A stretch of 64,000 bases of DNA from Branchiostoma lanceolatum (lineage: Eukaryota; Chordata; Leptocardii; Amphioxiformes; Branchiostomatidae). The stretch lies in contig NC_089729.1 of assembly GCF_035083965.1 (NCBI RefSeq), positions 13,937,464 to 14,001,463 of the forward strand, in the 5' to 3' direction. The notes under the pieces are model-generated. The model was not told the origin of the DNA. It saw nothing but the letters and a program-made list of their open reading frames with translations, and ran no database searches. The translations under genes and the position numbers were made by a program. Positions 3,201 to 63,716 of this stretch are shown here, in pieces (the stretch's first letter is position 1; each line of letters opens with the position of its first letter).

Positions 3201-6200
3201 TATACCCCGCTGCTGAAACAACAGAGAACCTTGCTGCCCTATATGCCACTTAGTAGGTACTACAAGGGTTTGAACTAAGGAATGCCACCATTAGACGAAC
3301 AGTGATTTCTTCGGCATAGGATATAATATTTGGGTCTTATATCTAGTGTTATAGCGTAGGTCTGTTATCATGCCATTTTCAGTTGTTCCGGTCAATGACA
3401 AACCATTATTTTATTCGCGCATCCACTCATTCATTTATTTAGTCATCCAGGCATTTCATTCGTTCACTCACTTTTTCCACCCTCCATTTACTTATTCCTT
3501 CGAGAATAAAGACGTTTCGTTTATAATTATTTTTCCTGTCTCAAATGTTGCATGGGAATAATTGCTATCCAAAAACTACCTCCCGTACATATTTTATAGT
3601 CATACCTTGGTCATGTTATTTTTTGCGAGTGTTCATGAATTTCTGAAGGTTTTTTTCCAATTTAGAATTCCAAGCACATAATGTAACAATTCCTAATGAT
3701 GTTTCATATTAAAACCCAAAAGGATGCCAACGCACAATAATAACCTGACTAATATATTACTGTCATGATAACCCGCCTTTGCGCATTTATACATTAGTGG
3801 GCTGGTTATAAGACGATTTACATGTCTTATTGCGGTACTGTCATGATAACCCGCCTTTGCGCATTTATACATTAGTGGGTTGGTTATAAGACGATTTACA
3901 TGTCTTATTGCGGTACAAGAAATCTAGATTAGGAGACTTCGAGACGGTGGCGCCATATAGAGCCTTGCAAAGCATCCTCCCGAGGGTCGGAATTACCCCT
4001 TGCGAATGCTTGACTACAAATTGGAAACTGGTTTTATCTAAGACAAGTCGTTTGCAAGAAAAGGTCATAGATCATGTTCGGGAATTGTAAACATTTAAAA
4101 AAAATGTTGTTTTGCTGCTTAATTATTCAAAATGCACACAAGGACATCAGATGTGTATACGTTTTCTTCAAGATTAGTATTCACTCCTACAAATCGAACA
4201 GGTTAACATTCACGGACTGTAGAAAACGTGAAAGGTACTTAGGCTGGCCACTTCTTGCTTGTCCAGCTCTCAGACCTCGAGTTACTTTTCTCTAAGCCGT
4301 CCACGGTTTAAAAGCACTCCGAATCGTCCGTGATCAGCAACATCTATGTGATGTTTCCGTCGAAATTACCCGTCAAGTAAATGATTTTATGTAGTCTTGT
4401 CATCAGGGGTCTTGGGAATGGATACTAGTATGCTTCTCATGTACCCCCCCCCCCCCCAAAAAAAATCCCACAAACAAACACTCCTTTAGTCTGTCTGTCA
4501 GTGAACACTCAACCACAGGACAAGTATTTGAAAAAAAAATCAATATAGAACGGAAACCGTACTAATTACATACAGCATGTGTTAATTAGAAGGGGGCTTA
4601 TCTGAGTCTTTCCTTGTAAGGTTTGTATTTTTGTCCCCTCTGTCAGTGTTGGCATTTAGCTCCAGGAAACGTACAAATACGTCCCGGATGCAAATAAGAG
4701 GACCGCCATCTTGAATCTGCTGTCTGTAGTTTACCAGAAACTTAGCCGGTCCTCTTTGAAACGCTAATACCGCGCTAAACTAGATGTGACATTTCAAAGG
4801 CATTTTTAGAAATCCCTAGCTCAATCGTTAAGAGCTCATGACAACTATAAGTCTAGTCTTTTTATGATCAAACAGTGCACACAGTCACTGTGTAGATGGA
4901 AAAGTTAAAAGCTAAGTCTATGTAACGTCTATTGCGAGCGTGGGTGGAGAAAGCCGCTTCGAGTTCACGCCTTAAAAGAGAATGTACTCAGTCCTGTCGA
5001 GATATATCAAGTGCATGTCTGGGTCGATGAATGGCGAAAGAAACAACGCGTTAACGATTTTTCAGAAAGAAAGAAAGAGAGAGAGAGTAAGAAAGAAATA
5101 TAAATATCCATGGGAAGCTCAAATCGGCACGTAGGCCGCTTTTCATTGAGGTCATGAGGGAAGAGGTAAGGGTCAGATACAATATAACAGAGATACACAG
5201 TCATCTAAATCCTAACTCTATCAACATGTATCATTATATATATATGGTACAACATATACAATCGGTACAAGAAGAAGGAAACAAAGAAGGAAACAAATAA
5301 ACAAAGCTATAGAAAGATCGAATTATGACTGGAAAGTAATATTTATGGACTAGGAAGAATTCGTTGAGCGCAAAGCCTCAATAGACAAGTTAGGAAAATC
5401 CAACCCGTCACTCTGTGTTGCCCTAAAGGTGCCCCCCTCCCCAACACACACTCAGAGGTCTCCTCAATCGCCCACTCCACAATCTCGCAGACGACATTTC
5501 TCTCAGGAAGACCGACAAATTACCCTCCCGGAGGTACAAATTGCGCCAAACGCCCACGGAAGTACTTCGAATGCGAACGCTTAGTTTCGTTAGTGACAAT
5601 TCTTTGGCTTAAGTACGGGGTAGCTATCACAGTGATTTAAGTCCTGTGACTTTAAGACTTAGATGTTAAATTACGCTAAAACAAGACTTCATAAAAGTAC
5701 TAAACCAAATTCCAATGTTAAAAACTTGAGCTACCTAGAAGTCATGAAGATGGAAAGAAAAATGGATGTTAACCAGCTCAAACTTCGAGCGAGAAGAGAT
5801 GACATTAGTAAATAAACCCTACCTTTGACCCATTAACTTTTTTCCTGTATACATCCGCTCATCAGGCCCAGGAGGACCCAACAACTCACACATGTCCTTA
5901 CGCCAACTAAACTGCAGACCTGAACACATTTTACTAACATGGGAGAACTTAGACCCTACATGTGCTGTCTAACCAAAAAGGTCTCCAGATTGGACCAGGA
6001 TTTTCTAGGAAAAGAAGGATTTTCAAGGGTTTTAAGTTGGGATCATGATCGTTGAGCCCGCAACTGATCAGCTCAACTGTGACGTCTGCCCTTATCATTG
6101 ACGTCTGGACCAGTAGAAAGCAAGGCGAATGAGCTAGCATACAGATGTTTTTTAAGAAGGCCGCGATGCCATTTTGATTAACTAGGTACTGTAATAACTT

Positions 6201-19439: not shown

Positions 19440-19770
19440 ATTGATTTCTAGGAAACTTTTAGTTTTTACACTTGCTCGATTTCCAGGAAACCTTTGCATG
19501 TGTTTGATTTCTAGGCAACCTTTACACGTGCTTGATGGCAAGGAAACATTTACACGTGCTTGTTTTCCAAGAAAATCGGGTACGTGCTTGATTTCCGGCA
19601 AACTTTTACACATGTTTGATTTCTAGGACACATTAACACGTACTTGATTTCTAGGAAACTTTTACACGTGTTTGATTTCTAGGAAATCTTTACAAGTGCT
19701 TGATTTCCAGAAAATTTAATACGAGCTTGATTTCTAGAAATAATTCACAGGCGCTTGATTCCAAAAAGCC
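19440..19770. repeat. Degenerate 30-34 bp minisatellite
   Basis: About ten diverged units of the form TTGATTTCTAGGAAACTTTT followed by ACACGTGC. Unit length and sequence vary and there are no unique spacers, so this is a decayed tandem array. Confidence 0.8.
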
Positions 19771-42500: not shown

Positions 42501-43413
42501 TGCAGATTTTTTGTGTGTGTGACTATGCTACGTGTATTTGCCGTATCTGAAATGGCTCTAATAAGACACTAGTACTAGGAGGAATATATGATGAACATTC
42601 TGAATTGAGAAATTTGTTATCCGTGTTTGTATTTGATTTCAATGAAATCATGAAATCAGATTTCATGTTGAAAGTTGTTGTTGTTGTTGTAGCGAAATTA
42701 TTGCCAATACAAATAAAATATAATTACCCGTAATTTGATGGTTCTTCCACGATCCTCATCGAGATTTTCCGAGGTTTGTCTTCTGCATAACCGTCTGAAA
42801 AAACAGACAACCACATGCCGTCTCTCCAGTACAGACGAAAGAGGGGCGATATGATACAAGTCTTCAAGATTGTTACTAGGAGGGAGAGAATACAGCCAGA
42901 GATTTTCTTTGAAAGTGCAGGGAACGCAGTAACAAGAGGGCACAGCCTCAAGCTTAAAGTACCCTTGGCCAAATCAAGAACAAGAGCACATGTGTTTAGT
43001 GCAAGGACAATAAACACTTGGAACTCCCTACCAGAGAGTGTAGTCTCCAGTGAAACAGTTAACCAGTTCAAGAAGCAACTAGATCGACATTGGAAGGAGC
43101 TAATGCACGAACACGGCGGAAGCGAATAGATCAGTCCACAACAGGCGCTGCCTTCCTCGACTGAAGATGGTATAAAGGTATAAAGGTGTTTCTTTCCGAA
43201 AAAAAATACAACAAATTTTCCCTCATACGTGCGCGCCCCTCCCCAAACACCAACGTTTTCCTAAAGAAACACGTACAAATAAAATATTCTAAAGACAAAG
43301 GGACTTATAATCTTCGCCGAACAATCTTAAAATCTGACATAAAAGTATATTTTACCTTGTAAAATCAGAAAAAGCAACATCAGTGACGTCCAAAAAAGTC
43401 TCATGACCGCCAT
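35016..43413 (-). CDS. GNPTG: GlcNAc-1-phosphotransferase subunit gamma, complete, 10 exons
   Basis: Exons, 5' to 3': 43413-43356, 42794-42728, 42264-42197, 40180-40126, 38699-38616, 38017-37921, 37337-37223, 36814-36732, 36178-35977, 35095-35016. All joins are GT/AG and in phase, giving about 302 residues against about 305 in human. Exon 1 encodes a signal peptide ([18 protein letters not shown]). The MRH-type lectin domain carries [24 protein letters not shown] with N-glycosylation sequons, and TPLVCHPH. Then come [18 protein letters not shown], a coiled-coil-like exon and an acidic tail ending DYL. The protein is a Golgi partner of the alpha/beta catalytic subunits and helps put the mannose-6-phosphate tag on lysosomal enzymes. 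Introns contain a hAT MITE, a TTAA-flanked inverted repeat, a 6-bp-TSD MITE, a retrotransposon remnant and a GT microsatellite. Confidence 0.96.
36519..36690. repeat. (TG)n microsatellite in a GNPTG intron
   Basis: About 170 bases of imperfect TG with GCATG and TATG interruptions, ending about 40 bases from the exon 8 donor. The His/Thr and Cys/Val open frames here are artefacts. Confidence 0.9.
38756..39675. mobile_element. Non-autonomous hAT element, 920 bp, exact 8-bp TSD
   Basis: Ends are inverted: TAGGGGTGGATACCGGTTCG at the left and CGAACCGGTATCCACCCCTA at the right. The 8-bp duplication GTAGTCAT flanks both sides (38748-38755 and 39676-39683), diagnostic of hAT-type transposition. No transposase frame. 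Contains AGGTTCAGG repeats near the left end and a nested 42-bp-arm palindrome at 39062-39158. Inserted in a GNPTG intron. Confidence 0.92.
39062..39158. repeat. Perfect 42-bp-arm palindrome inside the hAT element
   Basis: The left arm 39062-39103 (AACTCCTAGCAGCTCCCTCT...) is repeated exactly inverted at 39117-39158, with a 13-nt loop. Confidence 0.95.
40381..40936. mobile_element. TTAA-flanked inverted-repeat element
   Basis: TTAA then GGCCTGTGACACTT at the left (40381-40398), and AAGTGTCACAGGCC then TTAA at the right (40919-40936). TTAA duplication with perfect 14-bp termini is compatible with piggyBac- or Kolobok-like transposition. A third terminus, GTGTCACAGGCCTTAA, lies at 41451-41466 in direct orientation with the right end, so the structure may be composite. 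Confidence 0.7.
41644..41954. mobile_element. MITE with 6-bp target duplication, copy 2
   Basis: Starts CAGGGATCTCCCTAAAGAAT and ends GGGGAGATCTCTG. Flanked exactly by TAAGTG at 41638-41643 and 41955-41960. Same family as 22601-22894. In a GNPTG intron. Confidence 0.85.
42815..43129 (+). pseudogene. Non-LTR retrotransposon RT C-terminal remnant in GNPTG intron 1
   Basis: An open frame of about 104 codons includes [25 protein letters not shown] and [12 protein letters not shown], the pattern found after the RT domain of LINE-type elements. It is antisense to GNPTG, starting 21 bp beyond the acceptor of exon 2. A GGTATAAA microsatellite-like tail follows near 43170. Confidence 0.75.
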
Positions 43414-43735: not shown

Positions 43736-46700
43736 ATGGGTAAAAGAAAGGGCCATGGTAAGGCTCAGAAACATGGCCGCCAGGAAAAACGGGCCGGGAA
43801 GTTTCAGGAGGGAAATTTTGAGCGTTTTTCGGCTAAAATGAGAGAGGCTGTGGAAGAGACCGAGTTTGGAGAAAAAGGGAACACGTGTGAAGGTATCTAT
43901 ATATATTACATCTACATCTACATCTACATATAATATATGATTATCTTAAGTATATCTAAAATCATACATGATAAAATGATATGATAGGATATGTCTAAAA
44001 TTGTATATGATTTAATAATTGATTGAATTATAAAATACATAGTTTACTTAAGACACAAAATTATGTGGAAGAAAGTTTGATTTTGAATATTTATGTTTTA
44101 TGTTTTCTTCCCTGGTGTTAGGGTTGACAGGATCATGAGGTGTTATTCACAAGATTACCATCCTGTCAATAGTGCCAAAATATTTTTATTGACAGGAACA
44201 TCCTATAGCCTCGGCCGGAAAAATCTTATTGAAGGCAGATAATAACTTCATACTTCATAAAATCGTGCTGTATGATGGTCACGGCGAAGGGTGCTAGGAA
44301 AACGGAGGACCAAGAAAAAGTTTTGATTTTCTTTGTCCTTAAACATCTGCTTGGAGATATATATAAATAAGTCCTCACTAGGGGTGGGTACCGGTACCGT
44401 GTACCGGTACAAAACCGGTATTTGTTAATGGACTGGTCCAAAAAAAACGGTCCGTAAAAAATCAGTGGACCGGTCCTATGGACCGATTATAAAATTCATA
44501 GTACCAGGCTACCAGCAGGCGGCCACATAACTGGTCTAGGAAAATACAAAACAGCAGATTTAACGAGTCGTTTTCGAAGTACCCACCCCTAGTCCTCATG
44601 TGTATCTGTTATAAAAGGAGGGGAGGATCTCAGCCAATCAGAGGGAGCAACATCTCAGCCCAGCCAATCAGATGGCAGCATTCCCATTGCCATGGCGATG
44701 TGGGACCTGAACCACTGTGACCCCAAGAGATGCACTGGTAGGAAGCTGGAGAGACTGGGTTATGTCAGGACACTGAAACTGTCTCAGAGGTTCGGAGGGC
44801 TCATCCTCACACCTGTGGGGACCAGGTGTGTTTCACCGCAGGACAGGTGAGAGCTTTGTTGTTGTACATCTATTGTCTCATGTGGTGGCATGCATTGTTC
44901 TATATGATGAACAGCTTATGGGCTAAACGCATGTTGTACATGTACTAGTGAGCTATAGGTCGCAGGACTTGTACAATTCCCTGATTTAGTCATATATGTA
45001 TATGTGCAGTGCTAATCTGTACTTTTTAAGATCTTTGTTACAAAGATCTTAAAAAGTACAGACCAGATTAGCACTGCTTCTCTGCCTAGCGATCAGCATG
45101 TACATGGAGAATTCTTCTTGGTCTATGAAGTTAAATATGTACAGAAGTACACACACCACTGTCCGTGGACCTACCGCCTGCTGTAGTATTAATTATTTCT
45201 TAAGATGCTTGCACAAATACTATTATGTGGCCAAAGGGCCAAGGAAAGGGAGATGGGCACCACCCTACCATATGGTGTGGGAAGGACAATAACTTTTACC
45301 ATATGGAGATGCCCATGTTTTCCACTGTTTATCTCCTTTCCAAAATAAAGCATTTTTTTTCCATGTCCCTACTTTTTAAGTTATCTTAAAAGTAAAATAA
45401 CTGATATCAAAATTGCTGTCAGAATATTAAAGTAATTTTCATATCATGACATGCCATGACATACCATTATCATCCCATTATCATCCGTGAGACCTTCACG
45501 AGCAGATGATGATGATGATGACATGCACTTACAATTACATGTGTATAGTATACATACACCAACTAGACTAATCTGAACTAACATAACTGTATTATGTTTT
45601 TATAGGGAGATTGTACAGCACAGCGGCCTTGCAGTAGTGGACTGTTCCTGGGCCAAGTTAGAAGAGACGCCATTTGGGAAGATGAGGGGAGGTTACCCCC
45701 GCCTCCTGCCTTACTTGGTTGCTGCCAACCCTGTCAACTACGGCCGCCCTTGTAAACTATCCTGTGTGGAGGCATTCGCTGCAACGTTCTACATAGTTGG
45801 TAAGTCATAATAGAACTGTACAGTATTATGTACTTCTGATCATGCATACATTTTATCGTTAATATATTGTTAATTACAAATACTAGTATTGCCATGTTCA
45901 TTCAATTATATGGATTACATTATCGGGGAACCCCAAAACTGATGTGAGCGTACAAAGAAAGAAAAAGTTGCCTGTTTACTTCATTAAATGGACCGTTCCA
46001 GTCGAACACCAACTTTCAAATCTTAGCGAGGTTCAATATATTAAGCCAGCTTAGTCTCTAAAATCTAGACTCAGTCCAAGTTAATGCTCCACCAAAAAGG
46101 AAGAGTAATAATGATCACGATAAAGTCTAGGCTTCAGTTAGATACAAGATTAGCCACTGAATTAAAACCAATGTACAAACACATCAATCGATCAAACAAC
46201 AACTTCAAGTTGACTCTTGTTTGTTTGTTAGGACTTAAGGAGTATGCTTGCAGGTGCCTTCAAAAGTTCAAGTGGGGAAAGGGTTTCCTTGAGCTGAACA
46301 GGGAACTGCTGGACCTGTATGCTGCCTGCAGGGATGGGGCTGCAGTGGTGGAGGCACAGCAGGAGTGGATGGACAAGCTGCAGCAGGAGGCAGCTGACCA
46401 ATCAGGTTGACTAGATCTTAAGTGGTTTAAATGGCTAACCAATCAGATGAACTGTCTCTAAAATGATTTATGCTGCTGACTAATCAGGTCAATTTGCTCG
46501 TGAGTGGTTTATGCTGCTAACTAATCAGGTCAACTAGCTCTTGGAGTGGTTAAGTGGCTGACCAATCAGGTCAACTAGATCTTAAGTGGTTTAAGTGGTT
46601 GAGCTATCAGATCAACTATTCCTAAAATGATTTTAGGGGCTGACCAATCAGGTCAACCATGTCTAAAATGATTCAAGGGGCTGACCAATCAGGTCAATTA

Positions 46701-47981
46701 TCTCTAAAATGATTCATAGGGCTGACCAATTAGGTTGACTGTGCCCCTTTAAAATGATCATAATGGCCAATCAGACCTACTGTCTCTAAAATATCTATAA
46801 TTACTGACTGGGCAGTCAGGTCAACAATCTCAAAAACAATGCATGGTCTGACCAATCAAATCAAACTTTTCAAAATTCACCTGAATGGCCTACCAATCAT
46901 GTCAGCTCTTTGTAAGGTAATGTTTGGTGTGTCTCTCTTCACATTCTTCTATGTCTATTTCCTCATTGTATTTATTCTCCACGAAGTTTTGATTCAAATA
47001 TTTAACTTTATATTATGAATTATGATATCTTTTTGTTGAACAACAGAACCTTTAGAGATGGACATGAGTCTGGAGCACTACAACCCCAACAGACCTGTCT
47101 ATGACTTCCCTGAATCAAGGTATGAAAACTTGACTATGTTTAAACTATACAAAACTGTTAGCTTTGTTCTGTGTATGAAGGATCCTAGGCATTATACTCT
47201 GCATGTAAAAGAACCCAACACACTTGTCTATGTCAGTAGGGACGACTGGATATTCTTAGCTGAAATTTGTCCCTGCATTGCAATATTAGCCAACAGAAAA
47301 AGCATCATGCTTCAGATCAAGAGAGGACTACTTTACCTTACCTTTCATAACTTCAACCTTTCCCAAAAGACATTTGTGTCAAAACCATTCTTAAAAGGAT
47401 CGGACAACCTTTGAATGTAGCATATATATACATTTGTGTTTTCCTGTAGGTTCCGCTTATAGGACAAAGCATTACATTGTTGCCAATTGCAGTCAAACCT
47501 GTACAAGTCAGGATCTCTACGTAAATGCCACCTGCCCAATGTGACCACTTTTTGGTGGTCCTTTGTGGATAATTTTCCCCATTGACACAAGCATTAAGAA
47601 TCCCTGTCTACAGTGACCACCTGTCAACATGTAGATAGACCAGATTTTATCAGTCCCAAGTGATCTTGTTGGGCAGTTTTGACTGTATAAACTGAAATGC
47701 CTTCCGTACTGAATTGGTACAGCTCAGATGAAGAGACAGAAGAGGAAGAAGATGATAAAGAAGATGATAAAGAGGATGATAAAGAAGATGATAAAGATGA
47801 TGAGAAGCAAAGAGTCGAAGAAGACACACACCATGACAGTGAAGACGGAGGAAGTGAAAATAAGGACAGCAGCTCAACAAAGGACAAGGACAGTAAAGAG
47901 GATACAGAAAGTGAAGATGATAACGATGATGATGATGTTAGATGGAAAGGACAAAAGGGATGGGTTAAACATAGGAGGTGA
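43736..47981 (+). CDS. TSR3: 18S rRNA aminocarboxypropyltransferase TSR3, complete, 6 exons
   Basis: Exons: 43736-43892, 44618-44846, 45606-45799, 46232-46405, 47047-47119, 47723-47981. All are in phase, about 361 residues. A Lys/Arg-rich N-terminus ([16 protein letters not shown]) precedes the catalytic domain: [68 protein letters not shown] and [16 protein letters not shown]. The C-terminus is an acidic tail of Glu/Asp/Lys repeats. TSR3 uses S-adenosylmethionine to add the aminocarboxypropyl group to the hypermodified pseudouridine of 18S rRNA late in small-subunit maturation. The exon 2 acceptor is a weak AAAAG site 26 bp after a hAT MITE; the exon 4 donor (CAG/GTTGAC) is copied in a minisatellite. 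The last two exons are supported by phase and composition more than by conserved motifs. Confidence 0.93.
44379..44591. mobile_element. hAT MITE, 213 bp, in TSR3 intron 1
   Basis: Starts TAGGGGTGGGTACCGG and ends GTACCCACCCCTA. The 8-bp flanks are GTCCTCAC (44371-44378) and GTCCTCAT (44592-44599), one mismatch. The termini resemble those of the 920-bp element at 38756. The right end is 26 bp before TSR3 exon 2. Confidence 0.88.
45006..45077. repeat. Near-perfect hairpin in TSR3 intron 2
   Basis: The left arm 45006-45037 (GCAGTGCTAATCTGTACTTT...) pairs with 45041-45077 across a 3-nt loop. The only defect is a 5-nt bulge in the right arm. No coding content. Confidence 0.93.
45190..45310. repeat. 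Diverged SINE-tail-like repeat
   Basis: TATGTGGCC, AAGGGCC and GGAGATGGGCACC are shared with 53270-53330 (TATGTGGCCCAAGGGC, GGAGATGGGCACCGCC). Boundaries uncertain. Confidence 0.4.
46392..46905. repeat. Minisatellite derived from the TSR3 exon 4 / intron 4 junction
   Basis: The junction sequence CTGACCAATCAGGTTGACT is repeated about 13 times into the intron at roughly 35-45 bp spacing (for example near 46480, 46558, 46636, 46680 and 46806). Many copies keep CAGGT. Divergence increases toward the right. Confidence 0.85.
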
Positions 47982-49162: not shown

Positions 49163-49391
49163 GTGTAAAATGCAGAAATGTTCGCGAGGATTTAATTTTG
49201 CGGTAGGGAGAAAATGGATTTAATTTTGCGGTAGGGAGAAAATGGAGTGTTCGCGGTGGTTTTGAGTTTGCGTTGGAAACATTAGCAGCGCTACAGTCAC
49301 ACAATGAAACGGTGGTTTTGTGTTTGCGCTTTTTGCGGTGAACTCTTTACCGCAAACTTAAAACCGCCGCGAACATTTCTGCATTTACAGT
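49163..49391. mobile_element. TGTAAATGCAGAAATG-type MITE abutting the kelch stop codon
   Basis: The right end (reverse complement) reads ACTGTAAATGCAGAAATG followed by TTCGCGGCGG. The left end reads TGTAAAATGCAGAAATGTTCGC, inverted to it. It carries an internal duplicated ATTTTGCGGTAGGGAGAAAA. Related copies lie at about 55049-55235 and 60744-60953. The element ends on the base before the stop codon complement. Confidence 0.75.
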
Positions 49392-51197
49392 TCAAGAAGG
49401 AAGGGTGACCGCACAGGCCGCGACACCTTGTAGCGGCTCAGGAAGGCTCTTGTAGTACCACCACGTGTTCTCGTCAGGACGATACACCTGCACCGTTTTC
49501 ATTGGCTCCTGACTCTGCCAACTGTAACCACCGACGAGAAAGATTCCGCAATCCGTCACGACTGCACCTGCCTCGCACTGCGTGTGGATCAGTGGTCGCT
49601 TCATGATGCTCCACTCGTTCCTCGCGGGATCGTAGGACTCGACGATGTGCGGGATGGTGTGGAAACCCAGCCTCATGTTCGGGTACTGTTCGTTCTCGTT
49701 CGTTTTCCCACCCATCACGAGGAGCCTGTCCTGCATGGCCGCCATCCCGTGCCATCCTCTCCGATAGTTCATGTTACGCGAGCGCTGCCATCTGTCCGTC
49801 AATTGGTCGTACACCCAGACGTCCTTCAGAAACCTCCCGTTTTGTGCCCCCCCGCTGACGTACAGTTTGTTATCGAGAACAGTGCTGGCGTGCGCGTAGA
49901 GGGGCTGTAGGAGGCTCGTCACAAACGACCATTTGTTTGCCTTGGGGTCGTACCTTTCTACCGAGTTAAGAATCTCGGCAGAGTTTCCGCCTCCGATAAC
50001 GTATATGCATCCATCTAGTACGCTTGTGGTGAAGCACGCTCTAGCTTGAAGTAACGGCGCGACTTCTATCCACGTGTTGGTACGAGGGTCGTATCGTACC
50101 ACCCTGTTTGTCGTTGACAATCCGGTGGGGTCCGTTCTTGTCTGCCCGCCTACGACGTAAACAAAGTTGTCAATCGCTGCAACGCCGTGATGGCTGACAG
50201 CGTACTGTTGGGGCAATCCCGGTCCAACATGCCAGGTGTCGCTCTTGCCTTCCGAAAGTCGGTACACAGCGTTTTGCGCCACACCTCCCCTTGCTCCACC
50301 AATGACAAGAATGTCCTGCATGGTCTGACTTGCGCGTACTTGAGTCTTATCAGTCTGTAGTAGCGGCTGCGTCAACGGAGAGTTTAGGTACGATATGGCG
50401 TCGGCAACCATTTGCCTACATCGCGCGTCCACCGTCATGAAATCAACAGTCTCCACGTGACAGGTCATGTCTGCTCGTGAGATCAGCACAAACCTGACGT
50501 TCTCCATCACCCGACTCGCCAAACTCTGACGTGAACCGTCGTGTTCAATCCAGCGTACGGCCAAATGAAAGAGCTGGAGTTCGGACAACTGTTCAATCTG
50601 GTTACTGCCTAGCAGTAGCTCTAACTGTTCTAGAGGTAAAATGCACAGACTATCCTGGAAACACGACACCCCATCTCCAGATTTGTTGATGGTCTCAAGC
50701 AGATAACTATGCACCGCAAGTCTCAGAGTCTGTAAGTCATACAGGGAAGCGATTTTTGCCAAATTTTCCCAGTTCTCTTCGTCAACCTTGACTTCTTTCA
50801 CCATGAACTCTTCGCAACACTTGACCAGTTTGGAGATCTGAAAATGGTGCGCCGTTACCAGTACTTCGTGTACGTTGTCAGATGTTAAGACAGTCTTGGT
50901 CGTGTATATGAACTGTAGTACGACCTTCAAACCCTCAGCTGTTACACCGTGTAGAACCACCTCTTCTTGAGTCTTCTCTTTCATGTCTGTGGAAAACATG
51001 ATCTTAAAGTATTCGCTGGCGGACGTGATGACGATTTTGTGCACGGGAAAGCGCTTGTCCTCCGCTACGAGCACGACATCGCAGAGGTATTCGTCGTCGC
51101 GACTCTTGTTCAGACCCTCCAAGATGGTGGACAGCTGGGTTTCGTCGCAGACTTCAGAACTGCAAGGTGTGGACGTATCCTCCTTTGATTGGGCCAT
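49392..51197 (-). CDS. Kelch-like (BTB-BACK-kelch) protein, single coding exon
   Basis: 601 residues from MAQSKEDTS. The frame opens upstream to 51266, but a strong acceptor (TTTTTACCGTTTCAG) at 51207 places the exon start at 51206, so a 5' UTR exon is expected upstream. Domains: BTB at about 30-135 (CDVVLVAEDKRFPVHKIV), BACK at about 145-245 (FMVKEVKVDEENWENLA), six kelch repeats from about 300 (VIGGARGG, VYVVGGQTR, IYVIGGGNS, LYVSGGAQN, LLVMGGKTN, IFLVGGYSW). Family members are substrate receptors for Cullin-3 ubiquitin ligases. I cannot assign one vertebrate KLHL orthologue. The stop codon directly abuts a MITE, so the 3' UTR is largely transposon-derived. Tail-to-tail with TSR3 and head-to-head with TPP1. 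Confidence 0.92.
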   Translation of the reverse strand: MAQSKEDTSTPCSSEVCDETQLSTILEGLNKSRDDEYLCDVVLVAEDKRFPVHKIVITSASEYFKIMFSTDMKEKTQEEVVLHGVTAEGLKVVLQFIYTTKTVLTSDNVHEVLVTAHHFQISKLVKCCEEFMVKEVKVDEENWENLAKIASLYDLQTLRLAVHSYLLETINKSGDGVSCFQDSLCILPLEQLELLLGSNQIEQLSELQLFHLAVRWIEHDGSRQSLASRVMENVRFVLISRADMTCHVETVDFMTVDARCRQMVADAISYLNSPLTQPLLQTDKTQVRASQTMQDILVIGGARGGVAQNAVYRLSEGKSDTWHVGPGLPQQYAVSHHGVAAIDNFVYVVGGQTRTDPTGLSTTNRVVRYDPRTNTWIEVAPLLQARACFTTSVLDGCIYVIGGGNSAEILNSVERYDPKANKWSFVTSLLQPLYAHASTVLDNKLYVSGGAQNGRFLKDVWVYDQLTDRWQRSRNMNYRRGWHGMAAMQDRLLVMGGKTNENEQYPNMRLGFHTIPHIVESYDPARNEWSIMKRPLIHTQCEAGAVVTDCGIFLVGGYSWQSQEPMKTVQVYRPDENTWWYYKSLPEPLQGVAACAVTLPS

Positions 51198-51206
51198 GGC
51201 TAGGCC

Positions 51207-52797
51207 CTGAAACGGTAAAAACAATTGTTGTAGCTTGTTACTTACGGACAGACTAATTTTAAACAAAACAACTTAGTGAAAATCTAAACTCTAACCCTAA
51301 CACACAAATCCATTGATCATGATATGTTTGGGCTAGAATTGGGCTAACAATTTAACGGCAACATCTACAAATATCTGTCATACTTGTTAATTTAACGTAA
51401 GCTTCTCTTTTTTAGAGACTTGTTGTTTAAATGATTTCTTTGCCTTCTGATGTTGTCAGTACAAAGTTACAGATTATCCTAAAAGTTTACATTAGTCTAA
51501 GGCAATCACGAAGTCTCACAAAGCAAAGAGGACCCAAAATTTAAGCGAGTGCGGACATGTATAACGTTTACGTTAACGTTACATGAACAAACCTTAACAT
51601 AACAACGTTACGATGAAATCAAAATAACACTGCATGCAACCGTTAATAACCGTCACCTTTCAAAATGCCGTAGAGATAGATCTTTCACCCGTGCAGTCTC
51701 CTCTAGTCTTGTTCCAAAACAAAGTATTCAAACCAGATCACGTTTAATGTTATGAAACTGTTAGGCGGAACTATCTCCTCAGTTTCGCGGGGGAAAAAAG
51801 ACTTCATCATCAACATCCGGTTCAGAGGTCGTAACCTTTGACATTTACGCGCCAAGGGGAATCAGCTGATCGGCGGTTCTTGTTTTTGTCCCGGGTTTTT
51901 TTGTTGAGTCAGGATCATGTGATGGGACTGTTAGCTAAGTAATACGGAGCTGTTTCCCAAAATCCAGGTTAGTAAATATAGTTTAACTCTGTTTGTATGT
52001 GCTGTGAATGTTTTTGAAGGGGTTTGCACAGCGCTGAGTTGTTTTAGGAGGCTGGAAAACATTTTGTGGCGCAGCTTGAAAAATATGTATTTTTTGTGTT
52101 ATGCAAAGCGCTGTAAAAATGGCATGGCGTTCTTTGTTCTTCTATTTCTATGGGATATATGCCATTACTTCTTTGGTACAAAAGATAAAGAATATGACAT
52201 TTTCAATACAATTTTGTATGTGGTAACTTATTTTACTTATTTTATATTTGTTTTGTTTAGTTCTTATGATGTTATAACGTTACCATGTACCACAGCTCGA
52301 AAATTCAGCCATTTTTGTTCATCTTGAAACTATATTACAAAGTCAAAGATGCCACGGAACCGGGTGATAGTAATTTTCTTTTCCAATGTGAATATGTATT
52401 TAGGATAATTCTGACTGTTCTTGCAAGTCACTTAAGCCTGACAAAACATGATACATAGAGAGCCTACGTAGAGGGTTCCACGTCCGGATTTTAAGCTTTT
52501 TTTTTACTGAAAGTTAGACATCTGTAACTTTTTTGCGCTATACTAGGAAGTACCGCAGGAAAAAAGAGCTGTATCCCCTATTTTTTTCCTTGCTGCCAGC
52601 CTTCTTTGTTTTATATATTGTGTGTCTCAGCTTGTTTTAATAGTAAATTACATATAACTAAATCATTTGCTTAACAATGGCTGTTGCAATACTAAATGCA
52701 CTATTCCATTCTATCTGCCCAAGTTGTCTATTAAACAGACAGGCTCGGAATTCTTCACCACTGGATCCTGAGACCGCTGCACACGGGACCGAGAGCC
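51207..52797. promoter_or_regulatory. Divergent intergenic region between the kelch gene and TPP1
   Basis: Probably contains the kelch 5' UTR exon and both promoters. The palindrome ATCATGTGAT (51914-51923; M-box core TCATGTGA) and CAGCTGATCGGCGG lie near 51860-51925. A possible TPP1 untranslated exon ends at AATCCAG/GTTAGT near 51968. The rest is AT-rich. Confidence 0.45.
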
Positions 52798-55700
52798 ATG
52801 CTCGCAGCCGTGGGAGTGTGTGTCGTGTTCGCGGGATTCTCCGCAGTCCTCTCGCAGCCTTTCAGCGGCGTGCACTTGGAGCCTGATCAGAGCACAAGGT
52901 TCGACATTGATTAATTCACCTGTATGTTGTAAAGTTGGCTGCCATTGGTTCAAGGATAGAGATGGAGTGGTCACTGACCTAATTAGTATATTGTCAATCA
53001 TTTTGGTCTTTGCCAGATTTTTTCTTAATCTTAATTTGTCCTTTTGATATTAGTTGGAATATACTAAATGTAAAATATTGAGAGAGTGTTTGCCTTGCAT
53101 TTGGTAGGTTGTGAGTTCAATCCCCAGCCATGGCAAGTCAAACCAAAGACTTTAGAAATGGCACATATATACTGCTTTCTCTGCTTAGTATTCAGCATTT
53201 GGCCATGGGAAAGAGTATAATGGTAGTTGAATACAGTAGACTACCACTACCAGTGGATTGGCCTTATGCTTTTGTGATTGCACAAAGTTATGTGGCCCAA
53301 GGGCTTAGAAATGGAGATGGGCACCGCCAGAGCCATATAGGTTGCAAGTGGACTTAAATTTCTGTTCATGTAAAATGTGCTGTATTGGACGGATACAAAA
53401 TGAATGTCATTATCATTATCAACAGTCTTCTGCAAGCAGTTTTGCAAAATTATCTATCATGGTAAGATAGCTTTTGAAAAAGAACTTTTTATTTTCCTAA
53501 ATTCGGCCATTTTTTTCTTTTCAGAGTTCCGAATGGCTGGAGGCGGCTTGAGCGAGTTGGAGAAAGTGAAAGTGTGGTGTTGACCTTTGCCCTGAAGCAG
53601 CAGAATGTGGAAAAATTAGAGGAACTGTTCTGGAAAGTGTCCGACCCAGATGATGAGAAATATGGTCGGTTAAAAATAATTTCACAACACTAAAAAAGTA
53701 TAATTTATCTGTAGTATCTATGATATGAGTGAACATTATTTCCTTCACTGATGAAAAGTGTCAGGTGGACACTTGAAATGTCTGAAAATAAAATGCGGTG
53801 ATCCAGTGGTATAAATTCAATTACAATTTTATTCTTAATTTTTGTAATTATACCTCTAGTATCTCCCCACTGAAGTGTAACTCAGAGACACTCACAGACA
53901 TGTGCATGCTTCTACGACTGCAATCTTTAATCTACTCTCTGCTCATGTAACACTGTACAAGGATACATTGTATGTCCTTCAGCAGCACACTTGCTGTGTA
54001 CATGTCTGCATACGTTAGACATCTAGTCTCATGGTGTTGGTATGCTAAAGGTCACTACAGCATCTACAGTGTGTATTACAAGTACATTCTCTTCAAGCTA
54101 TCAATATATATTACTTGCCCTTTCCACCAAAAGAAAATGAACCACTTTAATGTGGAAGAAATTCCACATTGGAGTCCTTTCTTTGGATTCTGAAACGTAG
54201 CTTTAATCTTTGTTGCCTTTCCTAATGCAATGTATTAGGCATGTATACATGTATTGTAAAACTGCACAAAGTTATATCATATAAGTGAAATATTGCAATA
54301 TCTTTCTGAAACTGCAAAACAACATGAATTTTCCATCATTCATTCCTTATGATGTTACAACAATGTGACTTGTAGTTCTTTTCACATTGCCAGTCTGCCC
54401 AACCTCTGGTGGGCTACTGTACTTGGTCACAATACTAGTAAGTTCCATACTGCTTGTGTTGTTCACAGCAAAATGGAAGACCTCGATCTCAGAGCTCTTT
54501 CTGCATGGAGGGTCTGCATGCTCTTTTCCGTAAGGCGTAGGCAGCCTATTTTTATTTCCCATAATTAGCAGGGAAAGCCGTCCAAGTCACGTAATTTGTA
54601 CCGACTACGTAGGCGACCAAATTTTGTGTAACCGCCTTCCTAGATTTTACCGTAAAACGTCAGGGGTTCTTCTCAATTCAGCGTAAAGTGTTGTCAGGAC
54701 CCCCCATGCTGACCCTCTCTCTGTCCTGACCAGGTGCGTACCTGAGTCTAGAAGACGTGACGTCCCTGGTCGAGCCTTCCAAGGAGACCGTGGAGACGGT
54801 GGGAAGATGGCTGAGGGGGTCAGGGGTCACGGACTGTACCACCGTCCTTACCAGAGACTTTGTGGAGTGTTCCATGCCCGCAAGGTAAACAACTTATAAG
54901 CCAGATCATGGTTTCAACTGCACATGCAGGAGGTCAGAGGTGAAGGCTCCTAACTAGTAAACAGTTCTTGTCTAGACCATGCTTGATACATGTCCAGACG
55001 GGTTTTGTTTTGAGATCTTTAACTTCGGTATACTCAAGGAGGTTGGTATACTGTAAACGCAGAAATGTTTGCGGTGGTTTTATGTTCGCAGCTTTTGCGG
55101 CGACCGTTTCACCACTGCAAGCATTTTTGTCCAATACCGTAGCAGTATGTGACTATATAGCACTGCCGTGAACACTCCATTTTTCCCTTAGCGGGAAATA
55201 AGAAACAGGCGAACTAATAAATGAATTTACAGTATTACCCGCAATCACATTGCACTTTGAATGTGTCTTCTGTACAATAGCAAAGACTAGTTGAAATGGG
55301 AAGTGATTAAATTTCTAATCTTCTATGAAAGGTCCTAAAAGATTTGCAAAATGATCTCTGTTTTCTGGTTGTGGTAATAGAAATTGTTCAGTTTTCTCTG
55401 ATGACCTCCCTTCCTTTTACTCCCTTCATTTTAAGTATGTGATTATGGCATGACTCACTTCTAAAAATGCGAGCTATCATTATAATACATGTGAAGCTGT
55501 ACAATGTATTGCATTACTAGCTACTTGAAAAAGCATCATGCTTTACAGTTGAGAACAACAAAAGTAGAAGCCAGCACTGTCTTACATGGCTATTTTTATG
55601 GTACCCTGTTATAGGGTTTGGTTTTGAACATATATCTTGATCAAAATTGTCTTTAGGAAAGCAGAGAGGCTGCTGGGAGGAGTGAAGTTCCACAGGTACA

Positions 55701-58700
55701 CAGATGGGAAACAAACAGTCATCAGGTCTGAGGTAAAGTACCTCGTACCCAGACATCTCAAGGACCATCTGGACTTTGGTAAGAAACCAACTTGTATATA
55801 GGGGCAGATATGTCAATCTGTGTGTATGTGTGCATATGATATGAACTGAACTTTTTGATATATTTAACGTACTGTAGTATACTTTACAAAAATTAGTTAA
55901 GGCTCCTTTTAACATGGTATACAATAGCATTGGTAAGAAATTATGTTTCAAAAGAAACATGGAAAATACACAAATGAATTGAAGAAAAACAGTTGATTTG
56001 AGATCAAAAGAAATTATTCAGAATGATATATTTCACACAATCATCTACCCAGCAGATATGATTATAGACAATAGAGTTTTTGAACAATTAATGAATGCAT
56101 TTAGAATGTCCTAAAACATTCAGACTATGTGGTTGATTTACATAATGAAAAACAAAACTTGTAGATTTACCCAATCAGTAAACAGCTTACAAAAACTTCT
56201 ACTTCTAAAAAGATTTTTTTCACCCCCACACCACTGTCCAGTTGGTGGAGTCGACAGGTTCCCTTCAGGATTAAAACTACAGAAGAAAGAGAAGAGTTAT
56301 GAACCAAACTTCCACCTGGGGGTTTATCCAAGCATCATCCGGACAAGGTACAACTTATCAGAAACCGACATTGGCTCTGATCCCAAGAATGCCCAAGCTG
56401 TAGCTCAGGTGAGTACTTGAGCAAGGTGCCTATAGCTGCAGTTTGCATCCATTCTGCAAGGTGGCGTGCATGCCATATGGAATCATTTTGTCTGAGAAAG
56501 TTTCAGTCCTTGTGAGATCTAAATGTTTCTTCTATCGTGCTTGTACATGACATTATGCATTTTAACTGCAAACTTGATTTTTGCAGGGCCTTAATTCCCT
56601 GTTCGAACTCACTGGGGAAATGAGGCTTTTGCTGTGTTTTATTTTTGCATTTTAAACAAATCTGTGGTAATGTTAAAACAAATTCTAAACACATATTATT
56701 AAATGTATTTGCAGTATCGTGATTTTGAGGGAATGGGTCAAGGCAAAAGTGAAACCACTGGAAACCTTTCAAGATTAACTCTACATATTTTTCTACTATT
56801 TTTGGCTCAGCTCTTTGTTTTTTTTAGAAATGCTTTTGATGCCATGTATATATAATGCAATGAATGCTTCAATTGACATTATGAGAAGATGTAACAAATT
56901 ATAATGAATATCTTCACAGTTCCTTGAGCAGTTCTATCATGCCACTGATCTGGAAGAGTTCATGCGTCTGTGGGGGGGAGGCTTCACCCACCTGACAAAG
57001 ACGGCCAAAGTGGTAGGGCCCGACAGCGGGAGTGCAGGGTTGGAGGCCAGCCTGGATGTACAGTACATCATGAGCAGTGGTGCCAACATATCAACATGGT
57101 TCTGGAGTACTGCAGGTCAGTATGGTTGGGGAGGGAGCAAGCGAGCGAGCGAGCGAGTGAGTGAGCAGGGTGCGAAATACCTGGTTGCGCACTTGCGCAG
57201 CGCAACAATATTTTGGTTGGCGCAACTTATCTCTTAACCCAGGTTGCGCGGTGCGCTACCTGAATTTTGGGCCGGAGAAATCGATTTTGCGGCAATTACT
57301 TGACGAAGTAGAAAATAATTGGACCAAGGAAGCTCACACACCCGTGTGGTGTGCACACACACTCGCTCTCAGTCTCGTAAATTTTCAAACCAAAAATATA
57401 AATCGACCCCCAACTAAACAAGTTAATAAAGTTACCGATACTTTTTCACTCGTTTGCATCCATAGTCAACCTGTTTTATTGTGCCTGAAACGCAAAATTC
57501 GTCGGAAAGAGAGCGCGGCTCAGCGCTCGGCTCTCTGCCGCCATGTTGAATTCATCGACTCTCGCTGGATATCGCGTGATTGCGCGAGAGTAATGACGTG
57601 CAATCTGCAGTACCAGCAACATCTGGTAGAGGGCAGTGTTTGAGTTGCTGTGTATTTCTATGGGCGAAATGTTGCTAGTGTGCCTTTTGGGGGCAAAATT
57701 AAAAATTGCAGAAGTGGAGATGGAGCCACTTTACTAATAATAAGCTGGGATTTAAAAAATCTTTACTTGGCAAAAATGATGATAGAATAAACAAAGTTGT
57801 TAAAATGTTGTGACAGTGAGATAAAAACTGGACAATGACATAGACTATAATTGTATTTATCTTATGATTATCATACATGTATATCATTAATAACCCACCT
57901 GTGAATTTTTCAATAAAAAATATAGGTTATTTTATTCCGGGGGTACTTTTATTAGATTTTGAAAATATGCCCAGTAGCAACTTTTATGTGAGGGATGAGA
58001 ATAATGTACAGGTACAAGTCCTATTGCAGTGTAGTGTAACTCTTCCTAGAGCAGAAAAAGCAAAAAGTCTATGGGGGTTGAAAAAAGGATTTATTTGTAC
58101 TCAAAAAATAGCCGTGTTACACATGAATTGTATAAGTTTGTTTGTTGTGGGTTGTGGTGTTTTATGAATTTTATTTTGAAACAAAGGCACATTTTAGCAC
58201 CAGTTATATTGTTAAAGGCTATTTAATACTATGTAGTACTACTTACAAAATATAATTTCAAGAAATCAGTGAATTTTAGGTGGGGTAACCTGAAATTCTG
58301 ACGGGCAACCTAGCTTTCTACCCAGGTTGCACACCGTGCAACCTGGCTCAAAAAAGTATTTCGCACCCTGGTGAGTGAGTGAGTGAGTCAGTGAGTCAGT
58401 GAAGAAAAGAAGGACAGAAGGAAGGAAGGAATTAGCAGAGAAGGTTATCTACAGTACTGATAGTGATTAATAGGGGGCGCTTTTGATCCATGCAACATGA
58501 CCATAAACATCTTAAGATTTAACGTTGGGTAACATAAATTCGGGATTTTTCCGATAATGGTTGACTGAAATCAATCTAGCAGAACAATAAACCATCCTTT
58601 TTTTCTATTATTCTGTCAGTATCATGTACTATCTTTGCACTAATCATATATATGGTAGATTTTGTCTCTGGTCGTGCTGATACCATAATATTTCAACTTG

Positions 58701-61405: not shown

Positions 61406-63716
61406 AACTTTAGTGCAAATTTTACACATGTATCTGTCTTAATTAAGTTGTTGTTGCTTTTTTCAGCCCGTATGTAACCACAGTTGGAGGGACCATGTTC
61501 CATTCACCGTATGAAGTTGGGGACGAGGATGCTGATTACATCAGTGGAGGAGGCTTCAGTAATATCTTTGACATGCCAGACTATCAGGTACGTAAGGGTT
61601 GTTATGATCTCTCTCAGTGTTTAAAATGTTAGTCTAAATTCTGGCTTTGTTTTGTCACTTTGCAGGTCTCAGACTGCAATGTTAGTTAGCAAAAATGCTT
61701 TTTTTATATAACTTGACCTTAATTTCATTACATCCAACAATATACATTTTACATATGACAATGCTTAACTTTCTTCCAACTTTAAGGTACACACGGATCA
61801 CATTTTAAACGACCAATTGAGAAGACTCAAGTTTATAATGCTTCCTGGCACGTTTGAACAATTGCTGAATGTCACATATTTCTAAAGACATGTGTCAAAA
61901 TGGTCACGTGCCTGTAACTCTCATGAGTTTACCTTCGACAGTGATTGGTCTTTATTGATCCTGAAGAAGGCGATCCGTGAATACCTTAGTGTTGGAAGAA
62001 AGTTTAGCATTGTAACATGATTACTACCAGTACAGATGAGCTTCCATTATATATTTGAAGTAGATTGAGACAAGAAGCAAGCTAGAAAGGATAGGGGAGT
62101 AGTCTACAAAACAAACTAAAGTCAATATCTCTTAAATTAAGGAAGGTCAAAGTTCATACAGCTTGCATGATTTTCAACTCAAATCACATTACAGTCACAA
62201 GTGATTGTGAAAATTTGCAAGTTAGAATTGTCGAGGGGGTATGAACTCTTAGCTAATTGATACGTGTGCATAGTTTTGCACTCAAGTATATGTACTAGAT
62301 AATAATAATATGAATCATTTAACCTTTAGCACACTGAAATAGCCATTTGGCACCCCATTCTCTATACGTTACAGAGTTAGGCAGCAGGGAGAAGGTTAAA
62401 AAGTCATGATAGGGATTTGTTTGTTCAATTTACCACAGACAGATGCAGTGGAGAGCTATCTGAACAAGAGTACCAAGTTGCCGCCCAAGTCGTATTACAA
62501 CACAAGCGGCCGGGCGTATCCGGACGTTGCTGCCCTCTCCGATAACTACTGGGTCGTCATGGACCTGATACCGACTCCCTTCATCTCAGGAACATCCGTA
62601 AGTTTTGTTTCAGAACTTCTGTAAGTTTTCTTTTGCAACTTCTGTAAGTTTTCTTTTGCAACGTCTGTAAGTTTTCTTTTGCAACTTCTGTAAGTTTTCT
62701 TTTGCAACTTCTGTAAGTTTTCCAGCTAATATTGTCTTTTTGAATATTTGGCCTGTGATTTTGAGATTGCAATTACCTGGCAGAATGTATGTGACAGTGT
62801 ATAGTCATTCTGTCTTTTATTTAAGATGGTCTTTAAACCACTGCCACATGTTCAGGACCTTTCCATGACTTTCTCTCCCAACCACTCCCCAACCAAGGTC
62901 GGCCCTGGCATGGGTTGGTGTAGTCTGAATCCCATCTTATTCCAACTCAAGTTTGCTCATCTGATCATGGGCAGTAGGCCTCAGCTCCGCGAACTCAAAC
63001 AATAGCGAGTTTGTCTTCCCCGCTGAGCAGTTGCGTAAGACATCCTACCCCATAGTTATGCAAATACTCCCGACGGCCCCCCGTCGTCCAATGTGAGACA
63101 GCCGCTCGGAGGAGCTAACTTCAAAATATCTCAGCTTCAAAATAACTTCAAAATAACTTCAAAATATCTCGCTCATTCCTCGCTCCGCGAGGAATTCGCT
63201 TGGCGCCTGTTTAAAGTAGGTGGGCGCCTTTGGGCGCACTTCGGGCGAGGTCGGCTTTCGGGTAAGTTCGGAATCCGCTCAGCCTATCACCCGATATCCC
63301 GGTATATATTCGGTATATATATAGACTCTCCTTCCGAGGCCTACAGCCTATGATCTGATCAGATCCAATCAGATAACAGTTTTGAAAGATTTACATACCC
63401 TATATTATACATATATTATATATACAAAGGAGAAGTACATTTAGAAAAATGTACTGGCCCAGGCCAAGGTTTTACAGGCCCCATATTTATATGACATATT
63501 TCTATGCATTTTTACTTGCAGCAAGAAAGCCCTTTCATTGTATTTTCTAACAAAGGAGCATACCATAATATCTTACATGTAATTCAACAGGCTGCTACTC
63601 CAGTGTTTGCTGGGATTCTGTCCCTGATAAATGACATGAGGTTTCAGCAAGGGAAGCCTGCTCTGGGATTTTTCAACCCCTTGCTTTACAAGTCTGGCTG
63701 GGACCTTCTGTATGAT
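52798..63716 (+). CDS. TPP1: Tripeptidyl-peptidase 1 (lysosomal sedolisin), 3'-incomplete, 11 exons
   Basis: Exons: 52798-52898, 53525-53664, 54734-54884, 55657-55778, 56242-56408, 56920-57115, 59841-60029, 60620-60692, 61467-61587, 62439-62597, 63591-63716. All are in phase; 515 residues precede the right edge. Exon 1 encodes a signal peptide ([19 protein letters not shown]). Exons 2-4 give the propeptide. The S53 catalytic residues are visible: Glu269 and Asp273 in GLEASLD, Asp357 in ASGDSGAGC, and Ser473 in SGTS at the end of exon 10. Downstream [15 protein letters not shown] and upstream YISGGGFSN are also conserved. TPP1 removes N-terminal tripeptides in the lysosome; human loss causes CLN2 disease. 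The final exon(s), with the C-terminal disulfide and GTP-N motif, lie beyond 64000. The exon 1 donor (GTTCGA) is weak. Two large transposons occupy intron 6, and a donor-derived minisatellite begins intron 10. Confidence 0.96.
53083..53400 (+). repeat. tRNA-derived SINE-like repeat in TPP1 intron 1
   Basis: B-box-like GAGTTCAATCCCC lies near 53112. A body follows with GGCCCAAGGGCTTAGAAATGG and GGGCACCGCC, parts of which recur near 45230 and, inverted, near 60280. Confidence 0.45.
55049..55235. mobile_element. TGTAAATGCAGAAATG-type MITE, copy 2
   Basis: Starts ACTGTAAACGCAGAAATGTT then GCGGTGGTTTTATG, and ends ATGAATTTACAGTA. Same family as 49163-49391; in a TPP1 intron. Confidence 0.65.
57166..58370. 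mobile_element. Non-autonomous hAT-like element, 1.2 kb, in TPP1 intron 6
   Basis: Starts CAGGGTGCGAAATAC and ends GTATTTCGCACCCTG, perfect 15-bp inverted repeats. Subterminal GGTTGCGCACTTGCGC and GTTGCACACCGTGCAACC extend the symmetry. It sits inside a GTGA/GAGT microsatellite, so GTGAGTGAG on both sides fits an 8-bp TSD but does not prove it. A 160-codon frame at 57161-57643 has no recognisable transposase motif. Confidence 0.85.
58520..59604. mobile_element. TIR element of about 1.1 kb, TA or TTAA type, in TPP1 intron 6
   Basis: Left end TAACGTTGGGTAACATAAAT and right end ATTTATGTTACCCAACGTTA are inverted, and CGGGATTTTTC / GAAAAATCCCG extends the symmetry. TA at each border fits a TA target duplication. 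No transposase frame recognised. Contains a tRNA-like stretch near 58936-58968. Confidence 0.82.
60744..60953. mobile_element. TGTAAATGCAGAAATG-type MITE, copy 3
   Basis: Starts TACTGTAAATGC and ends CGAACATTTCTGCATTTACAGTA. The interior shares GCGGTTTTAAGTTCGCAG-type sequence with the other two copies. In a TPP1 intron. Confidence 0.75.
61363..61406. repeat. (TTGA)n microsatellite
   Basis: About eleven tandem TTGA/GATT units, about 60 bp before TPP1 exon 9. Confidence 0.95.
62318..62400. mobile_element. Mini-MITE with TTTAACCTT/AAGGTTAAA ends
   Basis: 83 bp with inverted 9-bp termini. The interior resembles 10689-10770 (CACTGAA, TTGCACCC or TTGGCACCCC, GGCAGCAGGGAG). Ends 38 bp before TPP1 exon 10. 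Confidence 0.75.
62596..62726. repeat. Minisatellite of the TPP1 exon 10 splice donor
   Basis: Unit of about 23 bp, CTGTAAGTTTTCTTTTGCAA then CTT, repeated about five times directly after the real donor CCGTAAGTTTTG. Each unit contains GTAAGT. Copies are nearly identical. Confidence 0.95.
62820..63500. other. TPP1 intron 10, repeat-rich part
   Basis: Contains CCCAACCAAGGTCGGC..TGGGTTGG, similar to 17715-17750. CTTCAAAATAA microsatellite units lie near 63118-63170, with a locally CpG-rich stretch at 63170-63300. No coding exon recognised. Confidence 0.45.

Follow-up and report, generated by a model that had tools for sequence, protein, structure and literature searches.

When the 5′ splice site behind an active-site codon is followed by similar sites in tandem, which of them sets the end of the exon, how could the copies have arisen, and what would their use mean for the enzyme? 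These questions are raised by a stretch of lancelet DNA (64,000 nt; hereafter the window) in which the exon of TPP1 that carries the catalytic serine runs into an array of GTAAGT motifs. Here we describe the gene model, the anatomy of the array, the strength of each candidate donor and the coding outcome of its use, and compare the array with a second one in TSR3 and with minisatellites on record at exon ends in lancelets and human.

TPP1 and the array at its serine exon

With human TPP1 as query, tblastn gives 10 exon-sized matches in order, over human residues 31–529 (Table 1). They start at 53526 on the + strand and reach almost to the edge of the window, beyond which the final portion of the gene lies. 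The serine exon matches human residues 422–477 at 62.5% identity, and the joined exons 62439–62597 and 63591–63716 match residues 405–492 of human TPP1 in PDB 3edy_A with an E value of 4e-33. This homology along the enzyme, together with the SGTS catalytic motif, places the gene in TPP1 (sedolisin family), and the structure match and tblastn series bear out the orthology proposed in an initial annotation of this DNA; taken singly, the short pieces 62439–62597, 63591–63716 and 56908–57234 had no Pfam match. The serine exon, exon 11 by human numbering, closes with TCA GGA ACA TCC and is followed by GTAAGT, and the boundary as read at 62597/62598 agrees with the annotation in making the catalytic serine codon TCC the last of the exon. 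Human intron 11 presumably follows codon 475; a literature search for human splice variants at c.1425 gave nothing evidently on that site. At the end of the following exon, position 63716 corresponds to human D517, after which TPP1 is truncated by an insertion at c.1551+1 (PMC6494930), and this boundary is thus common to human.

Table 1. Features of the TPP1 and TSR3 loci (positions in the window)
Feature	Position	Strand	Size or motif	Remarks (for donors, outcome if used)
TPP1 serine exon	62439..62597	+	159 nt	Ends with catalytic Ser codon of SGTS
Next TPP1 exon	63591..63716	+	126 nt	Phase 0; last codon aligns with human D517
TPP1 minisatellite	62591..62722	+	23 bp, 5.7 copies	Tandem Repeats Finder, repeat search, unit comparison; spans exon–intron boundary
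TPP1 donor 1	62598..62603	+	GTAAGT	Sole one of six with open frame
TPP1 donor copy 2	62621..62626	+		Frame shift (23 nt); stop 19 codons past Ser
TPP1 donor copy 3	62644..62649	+		Stop 8 codons past Ser
TPP1 donor copy 4	62667..62672	+		69-nt extension of frame-keeping length, retains unit-2 TAA; stop 8 codons past Ser
TPP1 donor copy 5	62690..62695	+		Stop 8 codons past Ser
TPP1 donor copy 6	62713..62718	+		Partial last unit; stop 8 codons past Ser
TSR3 exon	46232..46405	+		Ends CAATCAG, then GTTGAC
TSR3 minisatellite	46393..46735	+	41 bp, 8.4 copies	Tandem Repeats Finder, repeat search, unit listing
Next TSR3 exon	47047..47119	+		In frame with donor 46406

Tandem Repeats Finder resolves the TPP1 array with a period of 23, 92% matches and a score of 215, and unit 1 includes the final 7 bases of the exon. 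The motif GTAAGT is present in 6/6 units (starts at 62598, 62621, 62644, 62667, 62690 and 62713, that is, at a spacing of exactly 23 bp), and the donor-containing minisatellite that had been reported at this boundary is thereby confirmed. Units 2, 3 and 5 are identical, and unit 4 departs from them by one base in 23. The match of these three to unit 1 is 17/23, as it is to unit 6, which scores no higher because its end is not repeated. Outside the array, the + strand of the window holds at most one GTAAGT in any 121-bp stretch and the − strand at most two, and all 60 first-order Markov control windows had at most three in a cluster. The excess of GTAAGT is a matter of the cluster only, as the window total is not raised (37 vs 38.29 expected).

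The composition of the units bears on their source. The last nine bases of the exon, GGAACATCC, agree with the corresponding stretch of the unit, GCAACTTCT, at 6/9 positions. Of the 4087 nonamers that precede a GT anywhere in the window, 46 match GCAACTTCT at 6/9 or more; read in codon frame, the exon tail and the unit encode GTS and ATS, and two of the three differences are silent. This exonic match speaks, if modestly for TPP1 alone, for units that descend from the boundary, and the exonic share of only 6/9 bases also counts against such descent. We then compared boundaries along the gene, scanning for a boundary copy the next 400 bases after 10 donors and the previous 400 bases before 7 acceptors of the ten exons, with exon edges set by the tblastn matches and the best GT close by (some are approximate). 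Downstream of the serine-exon donor the scan found an 18/23 match, a level seen at none of approximately 1000 control places. At the other nine TPP1 donors, 10%–98% of control places did as well as the boundary under test, and at the seven acceptors 7%–97%, so that TPP1 has one such array. The exact 23-bp unit was found 0 times in virus and prokaryote contig collections, where an animal intron repeat is unexpected, and an Rfam scan of the whole window gave 0 matches at the gathering threshold.

The same intron holds, at 62956–63362, inverted arms of 27 nt that are 85% complementary and 353 nt apart, which suggest a non-autonomous inverted-repeat element of approximately 400 bp with an 11-bp tandem repeat inside (63135–63166).

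Donor strength and coding outcome

The initial annotation had described six strong donors in competition. All six TPP1 sites are consensus on the intron side and carry TCC or TCT on the exon side. An ideal site would pair with U1 at a predicted −14.0 kcal/mol; the value is −5.7 for donor 1 and −5.4 for the copies. On a human donor matrix (scored on GT sites of the lancelet window), donor 1 reaches 0.37 and the copies 0.59, values equalled or exceeded by 327/4087 and 306/4087 GT sites in the window, respectively. Among the 10 TPP1 donors, donor 1 ties for the lowest score (0.37, shared with one other), the remaining eight ranging from 2.71 to 9.01. We therefore reject the description of these sites as strong, their exon side being weak: to judge from pairing and matrix scores, the six appear about equal, and sequence alone favours none of them. 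A recursive-splicing site at donor 2 was also considered and set aside, the CAG at 62611–62613 sitting 7 bases upstream and unjoined.

Equal strength does not mean equal outcome. In joins built by script from the serine exon, each possible extension and the following exon, donor 1 alone restores SGTS-AATPVF, and a premature stop arises in 5/5 alternative joins. The TAA inside the GTAAGT of copy 2 is in frame when retained; the 23-bp period sets it there, and this is why donors 3–6 all end at the same codon (Table 1). Of what had been anticipated from the use of downstream copies, the frame shift holds for donor 2, and the insertion of approximately 23 residues after the serine is rejected, since the 69-nt extension that would keep the frame contains the TAA. 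The stops in the alternative joins lie 89 to 214 nt upstream of the end of the following exon; in animals, a stop so placed upstream of an exon end usually exposes the transcript to nonsense-mediated decay, and decay is thus predicted here.

A second array in TSR3 and the placement of arrays

About 16 kb from the TPP1 array, a second minisatellite lies at an exon end of TSR3, the identity of which follows from a match of the joined exons to the Pfam domain Ribo_biogen_C (ribosome biogenesis protein C-terminal domain; E 6.7e-48) and to the TSR3 structure PDB 5apg_A (E 4.6e-21). This array begins 13 bases inside the exon and copies the donor region CAATCAG/GT. The last 13 exon bases, GCTGACCAATCAG, recur in full in three of the eight units listed after the first and at 10–12 of 13 positions in the other five, and the unit at 46557 agrees with the first unit at 38/41 bases. 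As a 41-base segment, the boundary finds a 37/41 match within 400 bases, a level seen at 0/972 control places. AG/GT is kept in 7/9 listed units, the other two reading AGAT. By matrix score the first TSR3 donor is weak (−2.55), and 6/7 copies score higher (0.02 or 0.71), the one at 46734 being lower (−4.76); U1 pairing is equal (−5.6) in 6/7 copies. Donor 46406 leads to an open frame. Directly past it lies an in-frame TGA, and all seven downstream AG/GT sites tested (one of which, 46820, is beyond the regular array) retain it, so that their use would end the protein at ...AADQSG.

Is the presence of two such arrays in one window a coincidence? The window contains four long arrays (period at least 20, length at least 100), two of which start 1–20 bases upstream of a modelled donor. 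When four arrays were placed at random, this two-at-donor outcome arose in 1/20000 trials, in a strict test that was framed after the arrays had been seen, with two genes modelled and with arrays 3758–3916 and 19465–19767, which are without a gene model, counted as not at donors. In a looser test, which counted all 22 modelled splice sites, 456/20000 trials put at least two arrays across a site, and 5220/20000 did so when 60 random extra sites were added. With these caveats, the strict result is suggestive, short of proof, of a non-random placement of arrays at donors. Given that two neighbouring, unrelated genes each have an array that begins just upstream of a donor and copies it, 5′ splice sites might be preferred birthplaces of minisatellites in this genome, through a mutational process tied to the junction (for example, transcription-linked slippage) the products of which would be tolerated via decay; we regard this as possible but less likely than not.

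Other features of the window are recorded here in their own right. The array at 19465–19767 is a 28-bp minisatellite of approximately 10 diverged copies, the unit of which contains TTTCTAG/G and resembles an acceptor, with no gene model nearby; that at 3758–3916 consists of two near-identical tandem copies of a 78-bp segment (98% matches). At 49170–49390, the two ends, read by eye, carry similar sequence in inverse orientation (ATGCAGAAATGTTCGCG ... CGCGAACATTTCTGCAT), suggesting a small inverted-repeat element, and this candidate includes a 28-bp duplication (49188–49246). On the − strand, 49392–51269 holds an open frame of 625 aa with BTB, BACK and Kelch domains that is apparently a single exon. 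An open stretch at 42791–43126 (...FKKQLDRHW), without a Pfam match, resembles the tail of non-LTR retrotransposon proteins.

Origin and consequences of the arrays

The name mirage was given, in lancelet Adh3, to minisatellites that copy exon–intron boundaries, and such arrays are reported from globin genes too (PMC3087553), with PGBD5 and troponin C as further cases (PMC3902484). Lancelet mirage genes thus include Adh3, troponin C, the globins BflGb6 and BflGb9 and PGBD5, with units of 10–72 bp in Adh3 (PMC3087553, PMC3902484). The globin paper describes mirages as varying in length, with somatic instability at Adh3, as carrying AG/GT signals in many, not all, units and, by RT–PCR, as seeming not to disturb regular splicing (PMC3087553). 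The arrays in TPP1 and TSR3 share with mirages the tandem copying of a boundary and its splice signal, inner units that are more alike than the divergent edge units and, in TSR3, some units without a signal. In both genes the repeat spans the exon–intron boundary (modestly in TPP1, clearly in TSR3) and its units carry a splice signal (6/6 and 7/9, respectively). Unlike in the mirages described, the genes concerned are TPP1 and TSR3, the exonic share in TPP1 is just 7–9 bp, and GTAAGT is in every TPP1 unit. By sequence resemblance, both arrays are probably of the mirage type, for which length instability and an apparent lack of interference with splicing are reported and may apply here; the presence of two such arrays in one window is in keeping with lancelet DNA.

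The original report of a splice-donor minisatellite in human IFI6 (6-16, G1P3) is said to be that of Turri, Cuin and Porter in 1995. In that gene, a minisatellite with several donors has two downstream repeat units in use, giving isoforms (PMC4526556). As in IFI6, donor-bearing repeats stand at an exon end in the genes described here; unlike in IFI6, isoforms with an open frame are ruled out for 5/5 TPP1 and 7/7 TSR3 copies. New introns, too, have been proposed to arise by tandem duplication of splice-site segments (PMC3087553; see also PMC4974935), and the present arrays are like such intron gain in that splice signals are multiplied and unlike it in that the donor side alone is copied, within an existing intron, so that no new intron is implied. 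With mirages (PMC3087553, PMC3902484) and IFI6 (PMC4526556) on record, and with a second case in TSR3, the kind of array is therefore already known, and the initial view that it is unusual in kind is not supported.

The sequence shows how both arrays are built and phased and that, in either gene, only the first donor leaves the frame open. To explain this, we consider it probable that both are mirage-type, mostly neutral minisatellites, with splicing from the first donor, copies that are carried along and any leakage decayed. Under this scenario, the TPP1 boundary (that is, the last 7 to 9 exon bases and approximately 16 intron bases) would have been tandemly duplicated, and the inner units may later have expanded or been homogenised through slippage or unequal exchange; the same process, with a 41-bp unit, would have acted on the TSR3 exon end. 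Almost every functional mRNA would then have been spliced by the spliceosome at the first donor, the copies remaining in the intron as presumed passengers, and a copy that was used now and then would yield a truncated frame that is likely to be removed by nonsense-mediated decay. If copies are passengers and leakage is decayed, the arrays would therefore cost little and could persist near neutrality. Against this reading, local sequence gives the first donor no advantage: the TPP1 copies are slightly better by matrix and slightly worse by U1 pairing, and 6/7 TSR3 copies are better by matrix and 6/7 equal in U1 pairing. Moreover, because the IFI6 repeats do act as donors in human, the silence of these arrays cannot be assumed.

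Four other explanations have to be weighed. We consider it quite unlikely that the array in TPP1 works as a splicing enhancer, in which repeated GTAAGT and U-rich tracts would raise the local binding of U1 snRNP and TIA-1-like proteins and so have donor 1 recognised, the exon side of which would be weak because the serine codon fixes it. The tied lowest matrix score of donor 1 among the 10 TPP1 donors would fit such a need, although the matrix is human, and units 2–5 continue past the donor with TTTCTTTTGC; TIA proteins bind U-rich sequence adjoining 5′ splice sites and, by way of U1-C, bring in U1 (PMC2964331, PMC9311317). However, no U-rich tract of this sort directly follows the donor in the TSR3 units, so that enhancement would not account for both arrays, and the observations do not require it. 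We consider it about as unlikely that the arrays regulate output, with use of the copies diverting a regulated fraction of transcripts to decay and repeat number setting that fraction. Although the premature stops obtained with 5/5 TPP1 and 7/7 TSR3 copies are in keeping with this, and minisatellite repeats can be donors in IFI6 (PMC4526556), retained intron sequence is in any case expected to contain stops, and in TPP1 the TAA simply follows from a GTAAGT repeated at 23-bp spacing. That the copy number reflects collapse or expansion during assembly is very improbable: near-identical 23-bp units are prone to it, and one lancelet globin mirage was reported as aberrantly assembled in a draft (PMC3087553), but the TPP1 array is only 132 bp, which one read could span, and divergence among the TSR3 units makes their collapse difficult. 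That alternative donors give extended working TPP1 proteins, as was initially proposed from the six intact GTAAGT motifs, is scarcely conceivable, the stops in 5/5 joins and the TAA in the frame-keeping 69 nt refuting it for the allele in this window, barring readthrough or a second splice event that removes the stop.

We return to the mostly neutral, mirage-type reading of both arrays. If the first donor is faithfully used in spite of equal or better copies downstream, these loci would be natural tests of the role of position among equal 5′ splice sites; if the copies do serve as donors, the dosage of the enzyme would depend on the number of repeats. Since 64 kb hold two cases, in genes that are unrelated, the idea of a junction hot spot is now testable by a genome-wide scan.
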